Under the pieces are notes generated by a model. The model was not told the DNA's origin and did not search any database. It was given only the letters and a program-made list of their open reading frames with translations. DNA of 26,216 nt from a virus, in the IMG/VR virus record IMGVR_UViG_3300033993_000509, positions 1 through 26,216 of that record; one strand, given 5' to 3'. The stretch's first letter is position 1, and each line of letters opens with the position of its first letter. Made by a program: the position numbers and the translations under genes. Positions 9,140 to 21,888 of the stretch are shown here, piece by piece.

Positions 9140-9475
9140 TTATTTCATTTTCGAGCGGCGCAGACGAGACATACCCGAGCTGCTAGGAGCACCGGATCCG
9201 GGACCGCCACTGGCAAAACCCTTGACAGGCTTCTGCTTTTCCTTGGGCACCGGAGTTTCTTTGATCAATTTGCCAATGTCCGGATCCCGGCGGGAAGGAG
9301 TGACTGCGTCACCGACACGATTGACCGTGCCGCCACCGCCAAGGCGACCAGCCTTCTTGTCTTCCTTGACCATTTTCTTGCCAACGGAAGGCGCAATACC
9401 GACCTTCTTGGCAAATTTTGGGCTGTTTGCAACAGCAAGCATTAGCTTCTGTTGTTTTTTGGATGTAGTTGGCAT
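9140..9475 (-). CDS. Small basic protein with N-terminal KKQQKLM motif
   Basis: A 111-aa strongly basic protein. The start MPTTSKKQQKLMLAVANSPK and the following KFAKKVGIAPSVGKKMVKED match a small protein family often encoded beside phage structural genes. The rest is disordered Gly/Pro/Ser/Lys sequence ending RLRRSKMK. Function unknown; a DNA-contacting or packaged role is possible from its charge. The ATG overlaps the previous stop by one base (TGATG), with AGGAG nine bases upstream. Confidence 0.75.
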   Translation of the reverse strand: MPTTSKKQQKLMLAVANSPKFAKKVGIAPSVGKKMVKEDKKAGRLGGGGTVNRVGDAVTPSRRDPDIGKLIKETPVPKEKQKPVKGFASGGPGSGAPSSSGMSRLRRSKMK

Positions 9476-9769: not shown

Positions 9770-9970
9770 TTAACGAATCAGGGTCTTTTTGCCACGGGCC
9801 AGACCGTTACCACGGCACTGAACCGAGCCGCCGGAAGCGTACTGAATGGCTGTGCCGCCACCCATTTTCTTCATTGGCTTGGCATCCATACTCAGCATGT
9901 CGTCGCCGGCCTTGCCCTTTTTAGTGGACTTGGCGTATTTCATGCCCTTGTTCATGTTCATGTCTTTCAT
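9770..9970 (-). CDS. Small Met/Lys/Gly-rich protein
   Basis: A 66-aa basic protein starting MKDMNMNKGMKYAKSTKKGK. Its C-terminal GGSVQCRGNGLARGKKTLIR resembles an arginine/glycine-rich ending that recurs on small phage virion-associated proteins. No folded domain is evident. AAGGA lies 8 bases before the ATG. It is followed by a TTCG-loop hairpin. Function unknown. Confidence 0.72.
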   Translation of the reverse strand: MKDMNMNKGMKYAKSTKKGKAGDDMLSMDAKPMKKMGGGTAIQYASGGSVQCRGNGLARGKKTLIR

Positions 9971-14384: not shown

Positions 14385-14840
14385 TTACATATGCAGGATG
14401 TCTTCGGGATCCTGAACCGTGGCCAAGATTTCGTCATCATTGAGAATCCGAATCTCTCCGCCATCGATATTCATGCGTGCGCCAGCATAGCGACCAAAAA
14501 TGATCCAGTCGCCCTTCTTGCACCAAGCGCCGTTCGGGAATTTGCCCGTGTCGGCGTAGGCCAGAGGACCGACTTCCAGCACATAGCCGCAGGTAGTGGT
14601 CAATTGCTCGCGCTGAATGGTCTGGTCAGACAGGACAATGCCACCCTTGGTCTTGTTTGCGCCGCGGTACGGCAAAATCACAACACGCCAGCCGGTGGGC
14701 TTCGGGATGCGATTTAAAACGCTCTCATTAAGGTCTTCGACCTTGAGTTCGCCGTCTTTTGTGTATGCATCGGAGAGTTCCGGCTGCTTTGCAGCAGCTT
14801 CCTCTTCCCAACGCTTCTCCAGAGCTGTTTTCTCCATCAT
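14385..14840 (-). CDS. GroES-like co-chaperonin
   Basis: A 151-aa protein with an extra charged N-terminal 45 residues before a Cpn10 fold. Key features are GWRVVILPYRG (50-60), the mobile-loop motif KGGIVLSDQ (GGIVL at 66-70, the part of GroES that contacts GroEL), GYVLEVGP (85-92), and KKGDWIIFGRYAGARMNI (108-125). In the Cpn10 family the loop binds the rim of host GroEL; phage versions such as T4 gp31 enlarge or retune the cage for capsid protein folding. Its place between the small head genes and the scaffold fits that use. AGAGG sits at 4 or 7 bases from the two adjacent ATGs; 14837 is the better spaced start. Confidence 0.85.
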   Translation of the reverse strand: MMEKTALEKRWEEEAAAKQPELSDAYTKDGELKVEDLNESVLNRIPKPTGWRVVILPYRGANKTKGGIVLSDQTIQREQLTTTCGYVLEVGPLAYADTGKFPNGAWCKKGDWIIFGRYAGARMNIDGGEIRILNDDEILATVQDPEDILHM

Positions 14841-15099: not shown

Positions 15100-15240
15100 T
15101 TACGCGATCTTTGTCTTCTTCATAGCATCTTTGCGAAGAACAAAGTATGGTTTGTTGACCTGAACACCGGGAACTGTCTTCTTTTTCCCAACCTTGACTG
15201 GTTTCTCAACTGTTTTCATAGATTTACTGGAAGTTGCCAT
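15100..15240 (-). CDS. 46-aa lysine-rich protein overlapping the portal end
   Basis: A small basic protein that starts MATSSKSMKTVEKPVKVGKK and ends VLRKDAMKKTKIA. Twelve of its 46 residues are lysine. The ATG at 15238-15240 lies inside the last codons of the portal gene and has GAAAG six bases upstream; an in-frame ATG at 15219, four bases after the portal stop, lacks any ribosome-binding site. No homologous function is recognised; the charge suggests binding to DNA or an acidic partner. It would be missed by length filters. Confidence 0.6.
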   Translation of the reverse strand: MATSSKSMKTVEKPVKVGKKKTVPGVQVNKPYFVLRKDAMKKTKIA

Positions 15241-17599
15241 TTGGAGCTTTCGGTTGGTTGAGTTTTAAGAGAGCGATTTGATCGCGTGTGGCAGCAATAT
15301 TCTGCTGCGCTGCCAGTTTGGCCTGATCGTTGGCCACATCGTTCTGTTCGCGCTGCTGATCGAGCTGCAGGGACGCTTGATCCGTAGCAGCCTTGGCCTT
15401 ATCGCGTTCGGCGGACTGTGCCAATTCCTGCTTCTTGAGTTCCACGATGGGATCGGGCTGCTCTTGGCCAGCGCCGGAGAGCTGCTCCTGCATTGCCTTG
15501 ACTTCTTGGAAGAACTCAGCGACTTTGAGTGCCACTGCGGCTTCGCGCTGCAGGGAAGACACCATGCGATCAGGGTCCGTGCCGTACTGGCGGAACAAAT
15601 CGGCTTCCACAGTCTCTTCGGCCTTGAGTCGAATGTGATCAAAGATGTGTTTTTGCAGGGACATAGCCACTTGAGGCATCGATCCCACCAGCGGAGACAG
15701 GCCAAACATGATGTGCGTCATGATGTGGGCATCGTGCTGCTGACCAGCAAAAGCTTTCAGTGGCGAGCCATCCAGCGCCTGCGAGTTCTCACTGGCTGGG
15801 TCCTTCGGCTTGTCGATGTTCTGGCTGTTCAGGATGGAATCGATATCGCGCACCCCAATGGCCTCATACATGCGGCGGTAGGACTCATACATGTTGTGCA
15901 TCTGCGGAGCGCTCTGCGCCAGTTGCAGCTGCGTCTGGGCCATGGTGATGCGCTGGGCCACCGAGAAGATGTTGGGGTCAGACACAGGCAACACATCGAT
16001 GCGGGAATCGAAGTCTGTGGCCTTGATCGAGCGCGACTCGCCCGGCACATCGTACGGGTACTCGTCAGGCAGGTACTCAGCAAAACCCTTGGCCAGCAGT
16101 TTGAACTCCAAGCCCTGCGAATAGTGCAAGCGCTTGTGGATCGCGGACATGACCGCAGAGCCTTTTTCCAGCAGTGCAATCGTGGTGCCCACAGCAGCGT
16201 TTTGGTTGCTGTCGCCAACTTGCATGTCGGTGATCGAGGCCATACGCCGGCCAGCATCCACGCACGCGCCCAGAAGCGCGAACAGCGTCTGGCTTGGCTC
16301 CTTGTACGGCAGTGGCAGCAGGGATCCGGAGATCTCAGCGCCGCCCACATCGATGTCGCGCCACTCACCCGGCTGGATCGACACGTCGTCGTTCATGATC
16401 CGAGCGCCCTTGGCCTTGAAGCCTGCTGGGAGATTGCTTAGGGTACCGGCATCAACCAGTTGACGCAATGCAGCAGACGCAGTCTTCGTCAGGCCACCAA
16501 CAAGGTGCAGGAAGCCCAGACCGTATGCGCCCATGCCTTGGACCAGCAGGTAGTGGATGTAGTATTCGCAGCGCTTCTTCCCCTCGTCGCCCGATTTCCA
16601 GTTGCGGCGAACGCCAACAACCTTGCTGGAGACTTCATCCAAAGTGATGATGTACGGCAGTTTGATGCCGGTGGGCTCGCCAGTGTCATCAGTGTCCTCA
16701 AAGCCCGGCAGGTCGTAGTCGATCTGGAACTCGAGCAGCGAGATCTCGTCTTCTTCACCGCTTGGTGTGATGCCGACGACCTTGTCCCGCGCTTCTTGGA
16801 TCTGGCTGGTAGTGGTGTCGCGCTCGGACTCTGCCATGTCCAAGTAGCGGCCAGCGTAAACGGATTTGCGGTACGCATTCATCGACATCGGAATGCGGTG
16901 CGTGATGCGCTCGCACTTGGTCATGACCGACGAGCCGTTGTACGGGATGTACAGGTTGTCAGGCAGCACCAAGGCGCTGGTCATGCGGCCAAGGTTCTCG
17001 TCGAAGTAAACCTTCTTGAACGCCGAGCCGCCGTAGCCAACATAGAACAGCAACTGGTCAAAGTCAGGGGTGTATTCCTCCATGACGCCAGTGATCTGGT
17101 AGTTCATGAAGTCCTTGACCCGAGTAGCCTGCATCAGGCGCTCTCGCGTCTCCTTGCCCAGCACCTGAGTGCGGACAGGGCCACCGGCCGGCATCAATTC
17201 CTTGAGTGCTTGCGACTGAAACTGGATGATGCTTTCTGACAGCAGAGGATGCTGCACGCCGCACGCGCCCTTGAACGGACGGGTGCGCTCTTCCAGAGAA
17301 AAACCCAACAGCTCCATGCCCTTGCTGTACTGGTCTTCCCAGTCCTTGCGAGACGCCTTGTCAGCCTCAAACAGGGTCATCAAGGTATCGGAGATTTCGC
17401 TCAGGATACTGTCATCAAGGACCTCGGCCAAGTTGGCGTCGTAGGGCACATCATCTTGCTCTTCATCGCCAAAGCTGACGATCACGCCACCCTCAGGATC
17501 GATCTCGATCTCAACGTCCTCCGACATTGGGGACTCGACTTCAATGTCGATCTCGCCCTGCGGTAGGTCGTCTGCGGTGGTGGCTCGTTCTATTGGCAT
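15224..17599 (-). CDS. Portal protein (P22-like, podoviral)
   Basis: A 791-aa protein forming the dodecameric DNA channel at one capsid vertex. After an acidic N-terminal 70 residues come RPFKGACGVQHPLLSESIIQ, the conserved core around GYGGSAFKKVYFDENLGRM and the hip/barrel segments (ITDMQVGDSNQNAAVGTTIA, LEKGSAVMSAIHKRLHYSQG) seen in portals of this type. The last 110 residues are Gln/Ala/Lys-rich coiled coil (QASLQLDQQREQNDVANDQA), probably the inner barrel or crown. Length is close to that of P22 gp1 and similar portals. AAGGATCCCAC precedes the ATG. It lies 9 bases after the 920-aa gene. Confidence 0.88.
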   Translation of the reverse strand: MPIERATTADDLPQGEIDIEVESPMSEDVEIEIDPEGGVIVSFGDEEQDDVPYDANLAEVLDDSILSEISDTLMTLFEADKASRKDWEDQYSKGMELLGFSLEERTRPFKGACGVQHPLLSESIIQFQSQALKELMPAGGPVRTQVLGKETRERLMQATRVKDFMNYQITGVMEEYTPDFDQLLFYVGYGGSAFKKVYFDENLGRMTSALVLPDNLYIPYNGSSVMTKCERITHRIPMSMNAYRKSVYAGRYLDMAESERDTTTSQIQEARDKVVGITPSGEEDEISLLEFQIDYDLPGFEDTDDTGEPTGIKLPYIITLDEVSSKVVGVRRNWKSGDEGKKRCEYYIHYLLVQGMGAYGLGFLHLVGGLTKTASAALRQLVDAGTLSNLPAGFKAKGARIMNDDVSIQPGEWRDIDVGGAEISGSLLPLPYKEPSQTLFALLGACVDAGRRMASITDMQVGDSNQNAAVGTTIALLEKGSAVMSAIHKRLHYSQGLEFKLLAKGFAEYLPDEYPYDVPGESRSIKATDFDSRIDVLPVSDPNIFSVAQRITMAQTQLQLAQSAPQMHNMYESYRRMYEAIGVRDIDSILNSQNIDKPKDPASENSQALDGSPLKAFAGQQHDAHIMTHIMFGLSPLVGSMPQVAMSLQKHIFDHIRLKAEETVEADLFRQYGTDPDRMVSSLQREAAVALKVAEFFQEVKAMQEQLSGAGQEQPDPIVELKKQELAQSAERDKAKAATDQASLQLDQQREQNDVANDQAKLAAQQNIAATRDQIALLKLNQPKAPNGNFQ

Positions 17600-17608
17600 G
17601 TGGGATCC

Positions 17609-20371
17609 TTACAGGTATTTGCGCGTAGCTGTGGATTGTCGCTCAATCATGCCGCCCGTGGCACGTTGTTGAGGGGTAAGAACATTTCCAAGGGCCCGGC
17701 GAAGAAGGTCAGCAACATCGTCTTCATTGCCTGTTGTGTATTGTGATCCATTGTTCAGCCTGATTGCTTCGCTTCTGACCGCGTCCAAGCCCGCTCTTTC
17801 AGAGCCAAATGCTTTTTCCAACGGCAATCTAACCCCATACCCTACGCCCATGGTCAGCAAATCCATTGGGTTTTTAGGCAGCTGTGTCATGCCCAGATTT
17901 GATAACTGGTCTACAAACTTAAGGCCACCATATGCATTATCCAGCTTTTGAACATATTCCTGAATTGCAGGCAGGCCGGGATAATCTTTAAAGTCTGTTG
18001 TATTCCCCGCTGTTTTTATTTCAGTAATTGAACGGCCCGTAATACGTCCATCCTTAATTATTGACTCTACGGCAACCTGAGCAATGGGTCGGGCCTGTTT
18101 GCCCTGACCAGTAACAATTACATGTAGCTGGCTGTCTCCGCTGGCATAAGACTCGGCATTTGGTCCATACCTTGTACACCAGCCACCGTCGCATCCTACG
18201 TCCGTAACCAGTTTCTTAAACTCAGGGTTTCTTCTTATGTCAGGCAGCGCAACACCTAGAAATTTTCCTTCTTGCAGGGATTGCCTTCTAAATGTTGGAT
18301 CATTGCGCAAGGCCGTGGTGGCCATGCCCTGTCTGGTTTCGTCTTGCCACCTTGTATATCGAGCCACTCGGTTAGAAGCGCCCGCAACATTTAGCTTTGC
18401 CAGCGTGTCGTCTGGGAGCAGTAGCTCGTCTGGTACCTTAACCTTAGGTTGGTTATATGCCGAAAATGCTGGCCCTGCTGCACGAATCTCCAACATTTTG
18501 TCCCGCAATTGGTTTAGCTGCAAATTGTCCACTATGCCGGGAGCAAAATCAGTTACTCGCGCCTCTGGATCAGTCTGAACAAGACTGCGCATGCTTGGGG
18601 GAATCCTGTTGGTTGATAAAACATCTACGGGATCCATGTAGGCGGAAAGATCTGTCAAGTCTTCTACCCGTTTGCCATATTCTGTTTTTGCAACAGATCC
18701 AAGGGCCTCTGCTCCCCGCTTCTCTGCCTCACGTGCTTCTGCTCCCCGCGTCTGCTTTACCTGTCTCTGCTTGCGCCCTAAAAAAGCCTGAAGATTTTGA
18801 TCTTCGGCCGAATCAGAGAATTTCTTAGGTACAAAATGCAGCAGCTTATTGTCATCTGCTGCCATAACCAACTGATCTTTAGTGGTTGCAAAATCCGTGC
18901 GTAAATAACGAGGCAGGGCCTTTGAGAACCAGCTGTTTAATGGCTGGTCCGGTGTGGTAGCCAATGTCTTAGCAAGGGATTCTGCCTCATCAATGGGAGG
19001 GCTGAATTTGTCAAATTCTTTGGTGCCTTGTACCGCCCTGCTGTCGTATATCTCTACATCAGGGTTTTTTGCCTCAAACGCTGCCCTTTCGTCGGCAGAC
19101 ATTGACATCAAAAAATCATCAGATGTATTTGGGGACCTAGGAGCAATCGCCACTGGTACGCCCCGTTGGCGGACCGCGTAACTTGCGCCGGGGACCGCCA
19201 ATTGTTGGTTGTACTGTTGGAAATCTTGAGCGGCAGCTGACAGGGCTTTTCCCGTGGCTGCTGCTCCGCGGGCCGCGGCCCGTGGGACGCTGGCCGGATT
19301 GACCACGGAAGAACCAATATCCCCCACGTCATAGAAACCACGCAATGTTGGATCTGTTGGCGGAGCAGGGCGGATACCGAGTTCCGTTGCTTTCCTTTTA
19401 ATAAACTCGCTGGTTCCGACTTGGCCGGCCGGGGCTTGACCTGTCAGAGCCTGACGGGCCAGCATGGCCAGATCCATCGGAGCGCCAAGGAGGTTGTACG
19501 GCATCTCAGAAATGCCCCGGGCAGCCGCGGTGTACGCTTCGCCCGAGCGAAGGGCCCCGCTGATCGGGCCTTCCTTGCGGCCAATACCTGAACTCGGAGT
19601 GATAAACGCCGGCCGGCTGGCTGCCTCGATCTCTTCCTGCGTTACCTCGCCGCCTTCAGCCATCTTCACGGGGGCTGGATCTTGGAACGGGGACTCGTAG
19701 CCCAGATCCAGCTTGGCCAGAGCCTTGGCGGCTGTGGGCTCGGAGCCAGCAGCCAAGAACTTCTCGGCTTCCGTAGGTTCCTCCGGATCCTTGTCTTCCT
19801 TTTCATCGGTATCCCCCAGCATCGACACAGCCAACGCCGCCTGATAACTCGGGCCATAAGCCGCGGTCCGCGATACAACATTCGCCGCTGCTGGCGCTTG
19901 GGCCGAGATCCCCGAGTCAATCGCCTTGTTCATCTCCAAAGTAGCACGGTCCGGCGTTGCTGGAGCAGGGGCCTTGGCCTGCTGAGTGTCCTTGGTCAGC
20001 ATCTTGTCAATCTTGGACACGTAGTTCCGGGTCTCCTCGGGAATCTTGCTTGCAGGAGCGCCAGCCTTGAGCCAGTTGTCCACATTGCCCGGGCCCCAGT
20101 TGTAAGCCATCAGGGCGGTATCCCTGTCCGGATACCGATTGATCATCGCAGCCAAGTAATCCCGACCCACCCGAGCCCGCTCATCAGGGGACTTGTCCTT
20201 TGCAGGGGTTACACCAAAGCCGGGGGACAAGTTGGTCTTGTCCAAAACCTGCATCTCACCCTTGGCACCCTTCTTTGAAGTGAGCAACCGATTTTTTTCA
20301 TCGTAACGCTTGCCACGGCTCTCCGCTTGCATCACTGCGTTCAGGAGTTCAGGGGAAAGTTCTTGGGCCAT
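17609..20371 (-). CDS. 920-aa virion protein with N-terminal lytic transglycosylase and C-terminal polyvalent-type module
   Basis: Residues 1-105 form an SLT-type lytic transglycosylase: catalytic-position Glu17 in LNAVMQAESRG, GAKGEMQVL, and the AYNWGPGN motif (89-96). Such domains in phage virion proteins open the peptidoglycan during DNA entry. Then come a long Ala/Pro-rich linker, a beginning GxxxAMLARQALTG helical region, and a C-terminal module from about residue 726 with GCDGGWCTRYGPN, LHVIVTG, ARPIAQVAVE and ITEIKTAGN. That pattern resembles a domain of large phage and conjugative polyvalent proteins (PcfJ-like, from memory). The end GGMIERQSTATRKYL is a recurrent phage C-terminus. 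It has its own TTGACA promoter and lies between terminase and portal. Confidence 0.8.
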   Translation of the reverse strand: MAQELSPELLNAVMQAESRGKRYDEKNRLLTSKKGAKGEMQVLDKTNLSPGFGVTPAKDKSPDERARVGRDYLAAMINRYPDRDTALMAYNWGPGNVDNWLKAGAPASKIPEETRNYVSKIDKMLTKDTQQAKAPAPATPDRATLEMNKAIDSGISAQAPAAANVVSRTAAYGPSYQAALAVSMLGDTDEKEDKDPEEPTEAEKFLAAGSEPTAAKALAKLDLGYESPFQDPAPVKMAEGGEVTQEEIEAASRPAFITPSSGIGRKEGPISGALRSGEAYTAAARGISEMPYNLLGAPMDLAMLARQALTGQAPAGQVGTSEFIKRKATELGIRPAPPTDPTLRGFYDVGDIGSSVVNPASVPRAAARGAAATGKALSAAAQDFQQYNQQLAVPGASYAVRQRGVPVAIAPRSPNTSDDFLMSMSADERAAFEAKNPDVEIYDSRAVQGTKEFDKFSPPIDEAESLAKTLATTPDQPLNSWFSKALPRYLRTDFATTKDQLVMAADDNKLLHFVPKKFSDSAEDQNLQAFLGRKQRQVKQTRGAEAREAEKRGAEALGSVAKTEYGKRVEDLTDLSAYMDPVDVLSTNRIPPSMRSLVQTDPEARVTDFAPGIVDNLQLNQLRDKMLEIRAAGPAFSAYNQPKVKVPDELLLPDDTLAKLNVAGASNRVARYTRWQDETRQGMATTALRNDPTFRRQSLQEGKFLGVALPDIRRNPEFKKLVTDVGCDGGWCTRYGPNAESYASGDSQLHVIVTGQGKQARPIAQVAVESIIKDGRITGRSITEIKTAGNTTDFKDYPGLPAIQEYVQKLDNAYGGLKFVDQLSNLGMTQLPKNPMDLLTMGVGYGVRLPLEKAFGSERAGLDAVRSEAIRLNNGSQYTTGNEDDVADLLRRALGNVLTPQQRATGGMIERQSTATRKYL

Positions 20372-20395: not shown

Positions 20396-20425
20396 TGTAT
20401 ACCCCCAATTCTATCGGGATGTCAA
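20396..20425 (-). promoter_or_regulatory. Head-operon promoter (TTGACA-18-TATACA)
   Basis: A perfect -35 box TTGACA (20420-20425) overlaps the stop codon of the terminase gene, followed at 18 bp by TATACA (20396-20401) with GGGGG directly before it. The predicted start leaves a leader of about 17 bases with GAGGA before the ATG of the 920-aa gene. Confidence 0.65.
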
Positions 20426-21888
20426 TAATATTCAACAGGTTCCGTACTCGGCTCGTCTTCCTCATCATCATCGTCCGCCAACGACAGGAAGTTGCCCTGC
20501 CTGAAGCGGCTCCAAGCCATGACCGTGGAGTCCACTTGGTCGTCATAGGATCCAACAGGAAATGACGCGCATTCCTCAACAAGCTCCTCGGCCCACTCTT
20601 CATTCTCCGGGTACCAAATCATCCCGGATTCCAACAGCGGTGCAACAGCATTGGCCCGACTAACCTTATCCTGCCCTGATCGCCTGCCGCCCGGTGAGTA
20701 CATCGTCACAGGGATCCCGATCTTTCGGAGTTCCTGCTGCAGCGGCGTTCCAGTGGCCTTGGCCTCAATCAAAACATTGTCAGGGTTCCAGTACTGGTAC
20801 TCAGCCTTGGCGATCCGCTTTAATTCAGGAAAGTCCCACCGCCCGCGTTTGACGCCCAGCAAAATCAGATTCGGGCCCGAATCAGCATTCGGAGTGAACA
20901 CACCCCACGTTGTGATGACAGAGTAATCAGCAGACTCCTTCTTGGAATACGCCGTGTCATAGCTCTGGATGATGTACTCGCACGACGGCGGCTCATCATA
21001 CTGCCACTTCCTCCACCACTCGCGCTTCAAAATCGCGCCTTCAGAGTTCGTCGGCTGCTGCTGCCACTGAGCATTCCACTTGGGCAAACCAATGGAGAAC
21101 TTGACCTTCTCCAACTCTTCGATCTTCCAGTACCCCGGCCAAAGGGGCTTGCCCGACGGCAGAATTGCCGGGAACTCCAGCACCTCCCACTGATCAGCCT
21201 TGATATTGCTCTGCATCTTGAGCAAGCGGCCCGATACGTCGTCCGTCTTCCAGCGTGTATTGATCAGTATGATCGCTCCGCCCGGTTGCAATCGCTGACG
21301 AGGACCCGACTCGTACCAATCCCATGTGTTCTGCATCGCAGTGTCCGAGATCGCATCCTGCTCGTCCAAAATGTCATCCAACACGATCACATCACCACCC
21401 CGGCCGGTCATCGCACCGCCCTTACCAATAAAAAACGCTTCCCCACCCTTGTTCGTGTTCCACCGGCCAGCAGCCTTGGAGTCCGCCGACAAAGCAACCT
21501 GCGGAAACAACTCCTTGTACTTCTCGTCATCCACCAGATTCCGGATCATCCGGCCAAAGCGCTGTGCGAGTTCAGCAGTGTGCGACCCGACAATGAGCTT
21601 GGACTGCGGCAAACGGCCCATCAGATACGCCGGGAACAGATAACTGCCCAGCTGTGACTTGCCATGGCGCGGGGGCATCGCAATCATCAGGCGCTTGCAC
21701 TTTCCAGCAATGACCCGATCAAACGCTTCAGCAATCTTCTTGTGATGCTCACCAACCAGCATCTCAGGCCACACGTATTGACTGAAGTTCAGGAAGTTAT
21801 TCTGCGCTTTTTCCTGAGCTTCAATAGTCTTCAGGCGCAGTTCAAGGCGCAAGAGTTCCGCTTCGTGGTCAGGGGCTGATGGATGCAT
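20422..21888 (-). CDS. terL: Terminase large subunit
   Basis: The 488-aa packaging motor with ATPase and nuclease domains. The Walker A motif is MPPRHGKS (71-78), Walker B is VIVLDD (167-172), and INTRW (210-213) is the coupling motif. The RNase H-like nuclease has acidic residues Asp311 (SYDTAY), Glu375 (LIEAKATG) and Asp449/450/453 (GSYDDQVDS). The extreme C-terminus is highly acidic. It starts without a recognisable ribosome-binding site; another ATG five bases upstream is in a different frame. A GGGGGTATACT element lies 43 bases before the start. No small terminase subunit is visible on its upstream side. Confidence 0.95.
   Translation of the reverse strand: MHPSAPDHEAELLRLELRLKTIEAQEKAQNNFLNFSQYVWPEMLVGEHHKKIAEAFDRVIAGKCKRLMIAMPPRHGKSQLGSYLFPAYLMGRLPQSKLIVGSHTAELAQRFGRMIRNLVDDEKYKELFPQVALSADSKAAGRWNTNKGGEAFFIGKGGAMTGRGGDVIVLDDILDEQDAISDTAMQNTWDWYESGPRQRLQPGGAIILINTRWKTDDVSGRLLKMQSNIKADQWEVLEFPAILPSGKPLWPGYWKIEELEKVKFSIGLPKWNAQWQQQPTNSEGAILKREWWRKWQYDEPPSCEYIIQSYDTAYSKKESADYSVITTWGVFTPNADSGPNLILLGVKRGRWDFPELKRIAKAEYQYWNPDNVLIEAKATGTPLQQELRKIGIPVTMYSPGGRRSGQDKVSRANAVAPLLESGMIWYPENEEWAEELVEECASFPVGSYDDQVDSTVMAWSRFRQGNFLSLADDDDEEDEPSTEPVEYY

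Follow-up and report, generated by a model that had tools for sequence, protein, structure and literature searches.

Related phages reshuffle protein modules at a Gly-Gly motif, which suggests a plug-in scheme for cargo proteins with possible delivery into bacteria

Internal virion or ejection proteins with SLT lytic transglycosylase domains are known from phages, those of the T7 gp16 and N4 virion RNA polymerase type being examples. The polyvalent proteins were described by Iyer et al. (2017; PMC5512222); in the parts of that paper drawn on here, they are proposed to be packaged and injected along with the DNA, a zincin-like peptidase hub domain is common and not obligatory (about 36%), and processing of polyvalent proteins by the zincins is proposed. 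The phage DSL-LC04 was placed in a proposed family, 'Dishuiviridae', and its terminase large subunit (TerL) groups with those of Pelagibacter phages (PMC10611076, in the parts used here).

The window, i.e., the whole stretch of DNA that was analysed, is a 26,216-base virus record from IMG/VR, and every gene named here lies on its minus strand. The gene under study was confirmed as a single ORF (17609–20371, −) encoding 920 aa. On either side, it has the genes for TerL (20422–21888; PF17289, phrog_38) and the portal protein (15224–17599; phrog_1216, E 1.6e-38). Copies 100% identical to the window protein were found in two further IMG/VR contigs (L001 and L002) from other metagenomes. The contig L010 encodes near-identical TerL (98%), portal (97%), GroES (99%), and scaffold-position (95%) proteins. 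The nearest named relatives by TerL are DSL-LC04 (65%; portal 61%), and 023Pt_psg01 and the Pelagibacter phages HTVC027P and HTVC023P (52–57%). The best explanation is that the gene family belongs to freshwater podovirus-like phages, kin to HTVC023P-type pelagiphages and DSL-LC04.

Other genes of these phages were recorded alongside. A phage-encoded GroES-like co-chaperonin gene lies within the head gene cluster of the window (14385–14840; phrog_3188, E 2.6e-20) and is present also in DSL-LC04 and HTVC023P, and a tail-fibre-like protein with an S74 chaperone domain at its C-terminus is encoded at 59–1468. In two pelagiphages, the TerL–portal slot is filled by other large proteins with GG motifs (L088:1453–5584 and L089:1472–5574), among which no similarity was detected. 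Since pelagiphages place dissimilar large GG-motif proteins there, the slot may itself be a cargo locus.

The N-terminus of the window protein carries an SLT domain (aa 3–103, 20063–20365; PF01464 in the Pfam scan, E 8.7e-12, with a score of 45.1 bits where the curated cut-off is 21.3), with the motifs AES (16–18), GEMQ (38–41), and AYNWG (89–93). The catalytic Glu in ES, G.MQ, and AYN are SLT hallmarks, and Glu 17 is the predicted catalytic residue. The initial annotation had described the N-terminal third as a cell-wall lytic domain; such a domain is present, but it spans the first ~105 aa only. Nothing else exceeded the cut-off in the Pfam scan of the window protein, and a MuF domain was not found. 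Two SLT-type N-termini occur across the family, and PF01464 was matched by both. As is suggested by what is established for SLT virion proteins, the N-terminal domain probably opens the wall by cutting peptidoglycan as the phage enters.

The borders of the following modules were read from comparisons with relatives. In blastn, the window and L010 are 87% identical up to position 19647, share no homology over the rest of the gene, and are 91% identical from 17611. The left breakpoint (19647, the last homologous base) falls in codon 242, inside the motif MAEGGEV (the GG joint, aa 237–243, 19643–19663), and the right breakpoint is the stop codon (17609–17611), at the first base of which homology resumes. 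The entire joint-to-stop part has been exchanged between these near-identical phages. The pattern GG[EDQ][VAP] closes the N-domain in 34 of the 34 5'-complete family members, i.e., those with the start inside the contig. The joint is followed by a GC-rich and Ala-rich linker module (aa 247–404, 19160–19633; delimited by HSPs with L012, L082, and others), common to relatives with either of two C-terminal types, and by a C-terminal module of the GWCT type (aa 405–905, 17657–19159; GC3 0.44), represented by a 30-sequence alignment (A1).

Relatives were encoded at 14 viral-contig loci, and in two cases the protein was identical to that of the window. HSP ends on the window protein fell mainly at aa 228–262 and 404–426, with others at 268–291, 474–486, and 542. 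Assembly by recombination near residue 410 had been proposed; a homology boundary does lie at aa 404–426, near the GC step, but the DNA-level breakpoint is at residue 242. The C-terminal module is closest to that of L007 (74.5% identical), yet the portals of the two are 70.4% identical, whereas L059 has a portal 76.3% and a C-terminal module 56.4% identical to those of the window. This incongruence supports acquisition of the C-terminal module from another lineage. The GWCT-type gene of L007 (3–1795) is itself split into two overlapping ORFs (3–1340 and 1307–1795), the break lying just past GGWCTRY, which is a frameshift or an assembly error.

The five 60-base G+C counts quoted earlier for this gene (35, 37, 23, 27, and 27) were exact on recount, and a scan along the gene bore out a composition step larger than chance would give. 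The strongest change point in GC3 was at aa 322 (support 291–408), with 0.68 ahead and 0.45 behind, and its log-likelihood ratio was 21.9 (maximum over 300 permutations, 10.5). GC3 per module was 0.677 (aa 1–235), 0.600 (250–404), and 0.439 (405–905), the step sitting at the border of the linker (0.60) and the C-terminal module (0.44), away from the edge of the SLT domain. The C-terminal two-thirds had been called less GC-rich; the poorer part begins at about aa 400 and makes up little over half of the protein. The portal (0.73) and TerL (0.68) genes of the window resemble the GC-rich N-terminal part. The N-minus-C difference in GC3 (0.235) was larger than in all 19 relatives with both parts measurable, among which GC3 likewise drops toward the C-terminus, though less (mean difference 0.103, range −0.021 to 0.220). 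Relatives with uniform composition and no module boundary had been named as speaking against a composite gene; module boundaries were present, and GC3 was near-uniform and high in two relatives (L029, 0.69/0.68; L067, 0.71/0.69). The step therefore belongs to the window copy, being weaker in most relatives, and not to the domain combination.

A pattern search with the C-terminal tag returned 71 contigs. The family set started from 78 proteins, each 300 aa or longer, that were tagged or were L010, and 52 were left once near-duplicates had been removed; the frequency of the tag among these 52 is fixed by construction, as selection was tag-based. At the 14 loci selected independently of the tag, it ends 13 of 14 proteins, and since L010 is the exception, the tag is not indispensable. 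In the window protein, the tag (RATGGMIERQSTATRKYL, aa 903–920, 17612–17665) has the form GGMIERQ...RKYL, and in all 59 distinct ORFs listed, GGxxER stands exactly 15 residues ahead of the C-terminus.

The 34 5'-complete members displayed 20 combinations of two N-types, middle modules, and two C-types. Segment clustering had fused N- and C-terminal parts into one cluster (M1), so this count uses middle modules together with N- and C-types assigned by pattern. Zinc-peptidase-like and other modules sit at the GG joints: HExxH modules occurred in 25 of the 34 members, the middle modules of the family include several with this motif (LLHEGQHAIQ, AHETEHL, LHELEHS, and AHExTHAAD), and a middle module of L067 (residues 233–363) matches DUF6973 (PF22322, E 4.5e-8). 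HExxH, and with it a zincin-like peptidase, was not found in the window protein. Scanned singly against Pfam and PHROG, the C-terminal modules and M2, M3, M4, and M5 yielded no significant family, and M6 yielded none against Pfam. Among the members of this combinatorial family, in which joint and tag recur, the window protein has the simplest architecture.

Among 2123 unique homology ends, 42.5% lay within 12 aa of a joint, compared to 2.7–6.5% in eight shifted controls (before de-duplication, 2473 of 5109 with 6.8% expected), these ends being mutually non-independent and the joint pattern having been defined after inspection of the first relatives. A stand-alone gene consisting of the AHExEHL module only (M3b) follows the polyvalent gene in L007, L076, and L083 and has its own tag (FASGGPVERRTDDNRRYL or its T-to-I form, i.e., FASGGPVERR(T/I)DDNRRYL). 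The L007 copy is 51–53% identical to most fused versions, and the aligned region takes in the tag, whose GGPVER pairs with GGPVYR at the internal joint in those fused versions that have it. To judge from their sequences, the joint and the tag appear to be one element that occurs at two positions. A separate 241-aa gene with a tag of its own (GGMVERKIDDNRRYM) is found at L037:7751–8473 and L051:1203–1925, and short late ORFs of the window (9140–9475 and 9770–9970) contain the joint-like KGFASGG and QYASGGSV. Loose GG motifs in late genes versus other genes numbered 17 in 8609 aa versus 6 in 6532 in DSL-LC04, 17 in 9922 versus 2 in 4572 in HTVC023P, and 9 in 6839 versus 2 in 1003 in the window; late-gene enrichment, suggestive in the two named phages but not in the window, was dropped as evidence.

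The motifs GWCT and ITEIKTAGN, pointed out earlier, were located at aa 730–733 and 782–790 of the C-terminal module. Fold searches and a profile match delimited a putative PcfJ-like domain with a predicted GNAT-like fold at aa 686–891 (17699–18316). The AlphaFold2 model of the C-terminal module, obtained from alignment A1, had a pLDDT of 81.7 and a pTM of 0.74. Its best named matches in BFVD were PcfJ-like phage proteins (A0A6J5KNR3, E 8.2e-16; A0A6J5L605, 5.8e-12; A0A6J5PC51, 7.8e-12), with long alignments and high rmsd. The top PDB row in VIA for the predicted model was HAT1 (1bob; Z 8.6, rmsd 5.8, 143 residues aligned), and nearly all of the 50 VIA rows listed were acetyl- or acyltransferase (GNAT-type) entries, with Z only moderate. 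Foldseek against the PDB gave nothing at E <0.001 (best E 5.5e-3). The structure prediction that the initial annotation had called for points to a GNAT-like fold and to PcfJ-like proteins.

The Pfam PcfJ profile (PF14284) had no match in the window protein, the window genome, or any of the 30 A1 members. The DSL-LC04 protein from the TerL–portal slot matches it (E 5.2e-9), and this protein was found by the GWCT-domain profile at E 1.8e-7 in a search of 709 sequences including 500 shuffles (best decoy, 0.76). On the fold matches and the profile match to this Pfam-positive protein, the domain is named PcfJ-like here, its fold is predicted to be GNAT-like, and we regard it as too diverged for the Pfam profile. 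The CoA-binding loop of GNAT proteins is R/Q-x-x-G-x-G/A. By eye, no conserved CoA loop was apparent in alignment A1 after the presumed strand 4 (ITEIK...GxxN), and acetyl transfer is therefore not claimed. A PDB profile search with A1 returned nothing at E up to 10. The A1 scan of genome contigs picked up 70 stretches that fit the pattern, of which 0 were confirmed as relatives, so that no link to a prophage or a host is drawn.

The model of the alternate C-terminal type (A3) was weaker (pLDDT 73.1, pTM 0.62), and its fold matches were PcfJ-like proteins in BFVD (E 3.0e-8) and HAT1 (Z 7.6). The profiles of the two C-terminal types did not match significantly in hhalign (E 0.074, probability 0.8%), and an hhalign match of the whole alignments was discounted, as the shared linker drives it. 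A common nature of the two types is suggested by the fold searches as its sole basis.

The window protein is probably (at roughly 0.7) a virion-delivered, combinatorial polyvalent protein. We infer that such a protein is packaged in the virion and injected, that it digests the wall in vivo and acts as an effector, and that tag and joints have a role, in the following manner. The SLT domain would cut peptidoglycan at phage entry, and the GG joint at aa 237–243 would be a socket, at which relatives insert zincin-like, DUF6973, and other modules. The common linker (aa 247–404) would carry the cargo, and the PcfJ-like domain with its GNAT-like fold would be an exchangeable, effector-like end acting in the host cell. 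The tag closes the protein and probably serves head loading or ejection. More tentatively, and with some doubt on our side, the GG motif could be one portable signal. At the C-terminus, it would be a loading or ejection tag that turns any polypeptide into virion cargo, and inside fusions it would persist as scar and socket, left by cargo genes that once stood alone. The phages would then have exchangeable cassettes for filling the capsid with effectors, and PcfJ would be a GNAT-like-fold effector family.

An ordinary ejection or structural protein with no effector would have an SLT domain that opens the wall, ejection machinery in the rest, and swaps that tune the protein to the tail or to the host envelope. 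SLT virion proteins are common, the PHROG matches are annotated as virion structural, lytic tail, and tape-measure proteins, and a GNAT-like fold with no CoA loop visible in the alignment may be non-enzymatic. We nevertheless consider this account unlikely: the HExxH and DUF6973 modules of the relatives read as a cargo list rather than tail parts, and the family of the C-terminal domain is annotated as PcfJ-like in other phages too. About equally improbable is a protease-site role of the GG joints, in which the zincin modules would cut a polyprotein there before packaging or after entry. The joints are positioned between modules, which fits, as does the zincin processing proposed for polyvalent proteins in the part of PMC5512222 cited above, but nine of the nine 5'-complete members with no HExxH, the window protein included, keep the joint. 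Self-cleavage is therefore unlikely to be its sole role, and the strict self-cleavage reading was rejected; a different protease, of the phage or the host, may cut there.

The DNA of the joints bears on whether they only anchor recombination and do nothing in the protein. Across 903 pairs of joints whose flanks are unrelated, codon identity was 0.516 where codon usage predicts 0.330, and nucleotide identity was 0.77 within the motif and 0.38 and 0.29 beside it, which speaks for such anchors. About half of the synonymous joint codons differ, however, while the peptide persists, the stand-alone gene retains the motif as a C-terminal tag, and similar joints occur in DSL-LC04, which makes an anchor-only role rather unlikely; the DNA likeness fits both common descent and protein-level retention. 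That the module changes are artefacts of metagenome assembly is hardly credible. All members except the named phages are indeed metagenomic contigs, but the window gene recurs unchanged in L001 and L002, reading frames are open across the joints in dozens of contigs, and module-wise composition differences are found in many relatives.

With the window protein read as a virion-delivered polyvalent protein, the window and L010, phages that are near-identical elsewhere, have had their cargo exchanged in full. The reshuffling of modules at a Gly-Gly motif by related phages suggests a plug-in system for cargo proteins, maybe delivered into bacteria. Should the tag prove to be a loading signal, phage-head proteins would have a short address in it, and the cargo repertoire of uncultured phages would become legible from sequence. 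For PcfJ-type domains, a GNAT-like fold would be a first structural handle on a family widespread in conjugative plasmids and phages. Within the literature searched, the joint and tag cassette logic and the link between PcfJ and a GNAT-like fold look new, and the polyvalent kind is known. The open-access literature searched gave no description of the gene family or of the tag, and none of PcfJ as having a GNAT fold. Term searches of PMC9599517 and PMC10611076 found 'polyvalent', 'PcfJ', and 'transglycosylase' in neither; 'PcfJ' has 0 occurrences in the text of PMC5512222, and GG joints and the C-terminal tag were not met in its sections 6, 8, and 25 and abstract.

Compared to the described systems, the window protein shares a wall-cutting domain in a large late-gene protein with the T7 gp16 and N4 type, from which its family differs in having combinatorial modules; RNA polymerase and T7 internal-protein families were absent from the Pfam and PHROG scan lists of the window protein. 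The MuF polymorphic toxins of temperate phages, as far as covered by the sections of Jamet et al. (2017; PMC5576092) used here, are alike in having a constant N-part and a variable C-part and in being encoded in the packaging module, but the window protein has no MuF domain, and swaps in its family involve middle modules and the N-terminus as well. The DSL-LC04 protein WJZ48068.1 occupies the same TerL–portal slot, has a PcfJ domain and similar joints (GG and RAEGSPxxGE motifs), and gives a profile match over two regions. In contrast to the window protein, it matches Pfam PcfJ and has another N-terminus, with no SLT domain by Pfam and no GGMIERQ tag. The polyvalent proteins, in the parts of PMC5512222 considered, are likewise multidomain, encoded among virion genes of portal/terminase phages, and have a lysozyme-type domain fused to unrelated domains; the zincin-like modules that they often carry are found in relatives of the window gene but not in the window copy. 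The polyvalent-type C-terminal module of the initial annotation was right in kind, as the protein is modular and its C-terminal module is exchanged between phages, and differs in its details. The window protein joins an SLT domain and a predicted PcfJ-like domain of GNAT-like fold in one polypeptide, with TerL and portal genes as its neighbours, as polyvalent proteins do.
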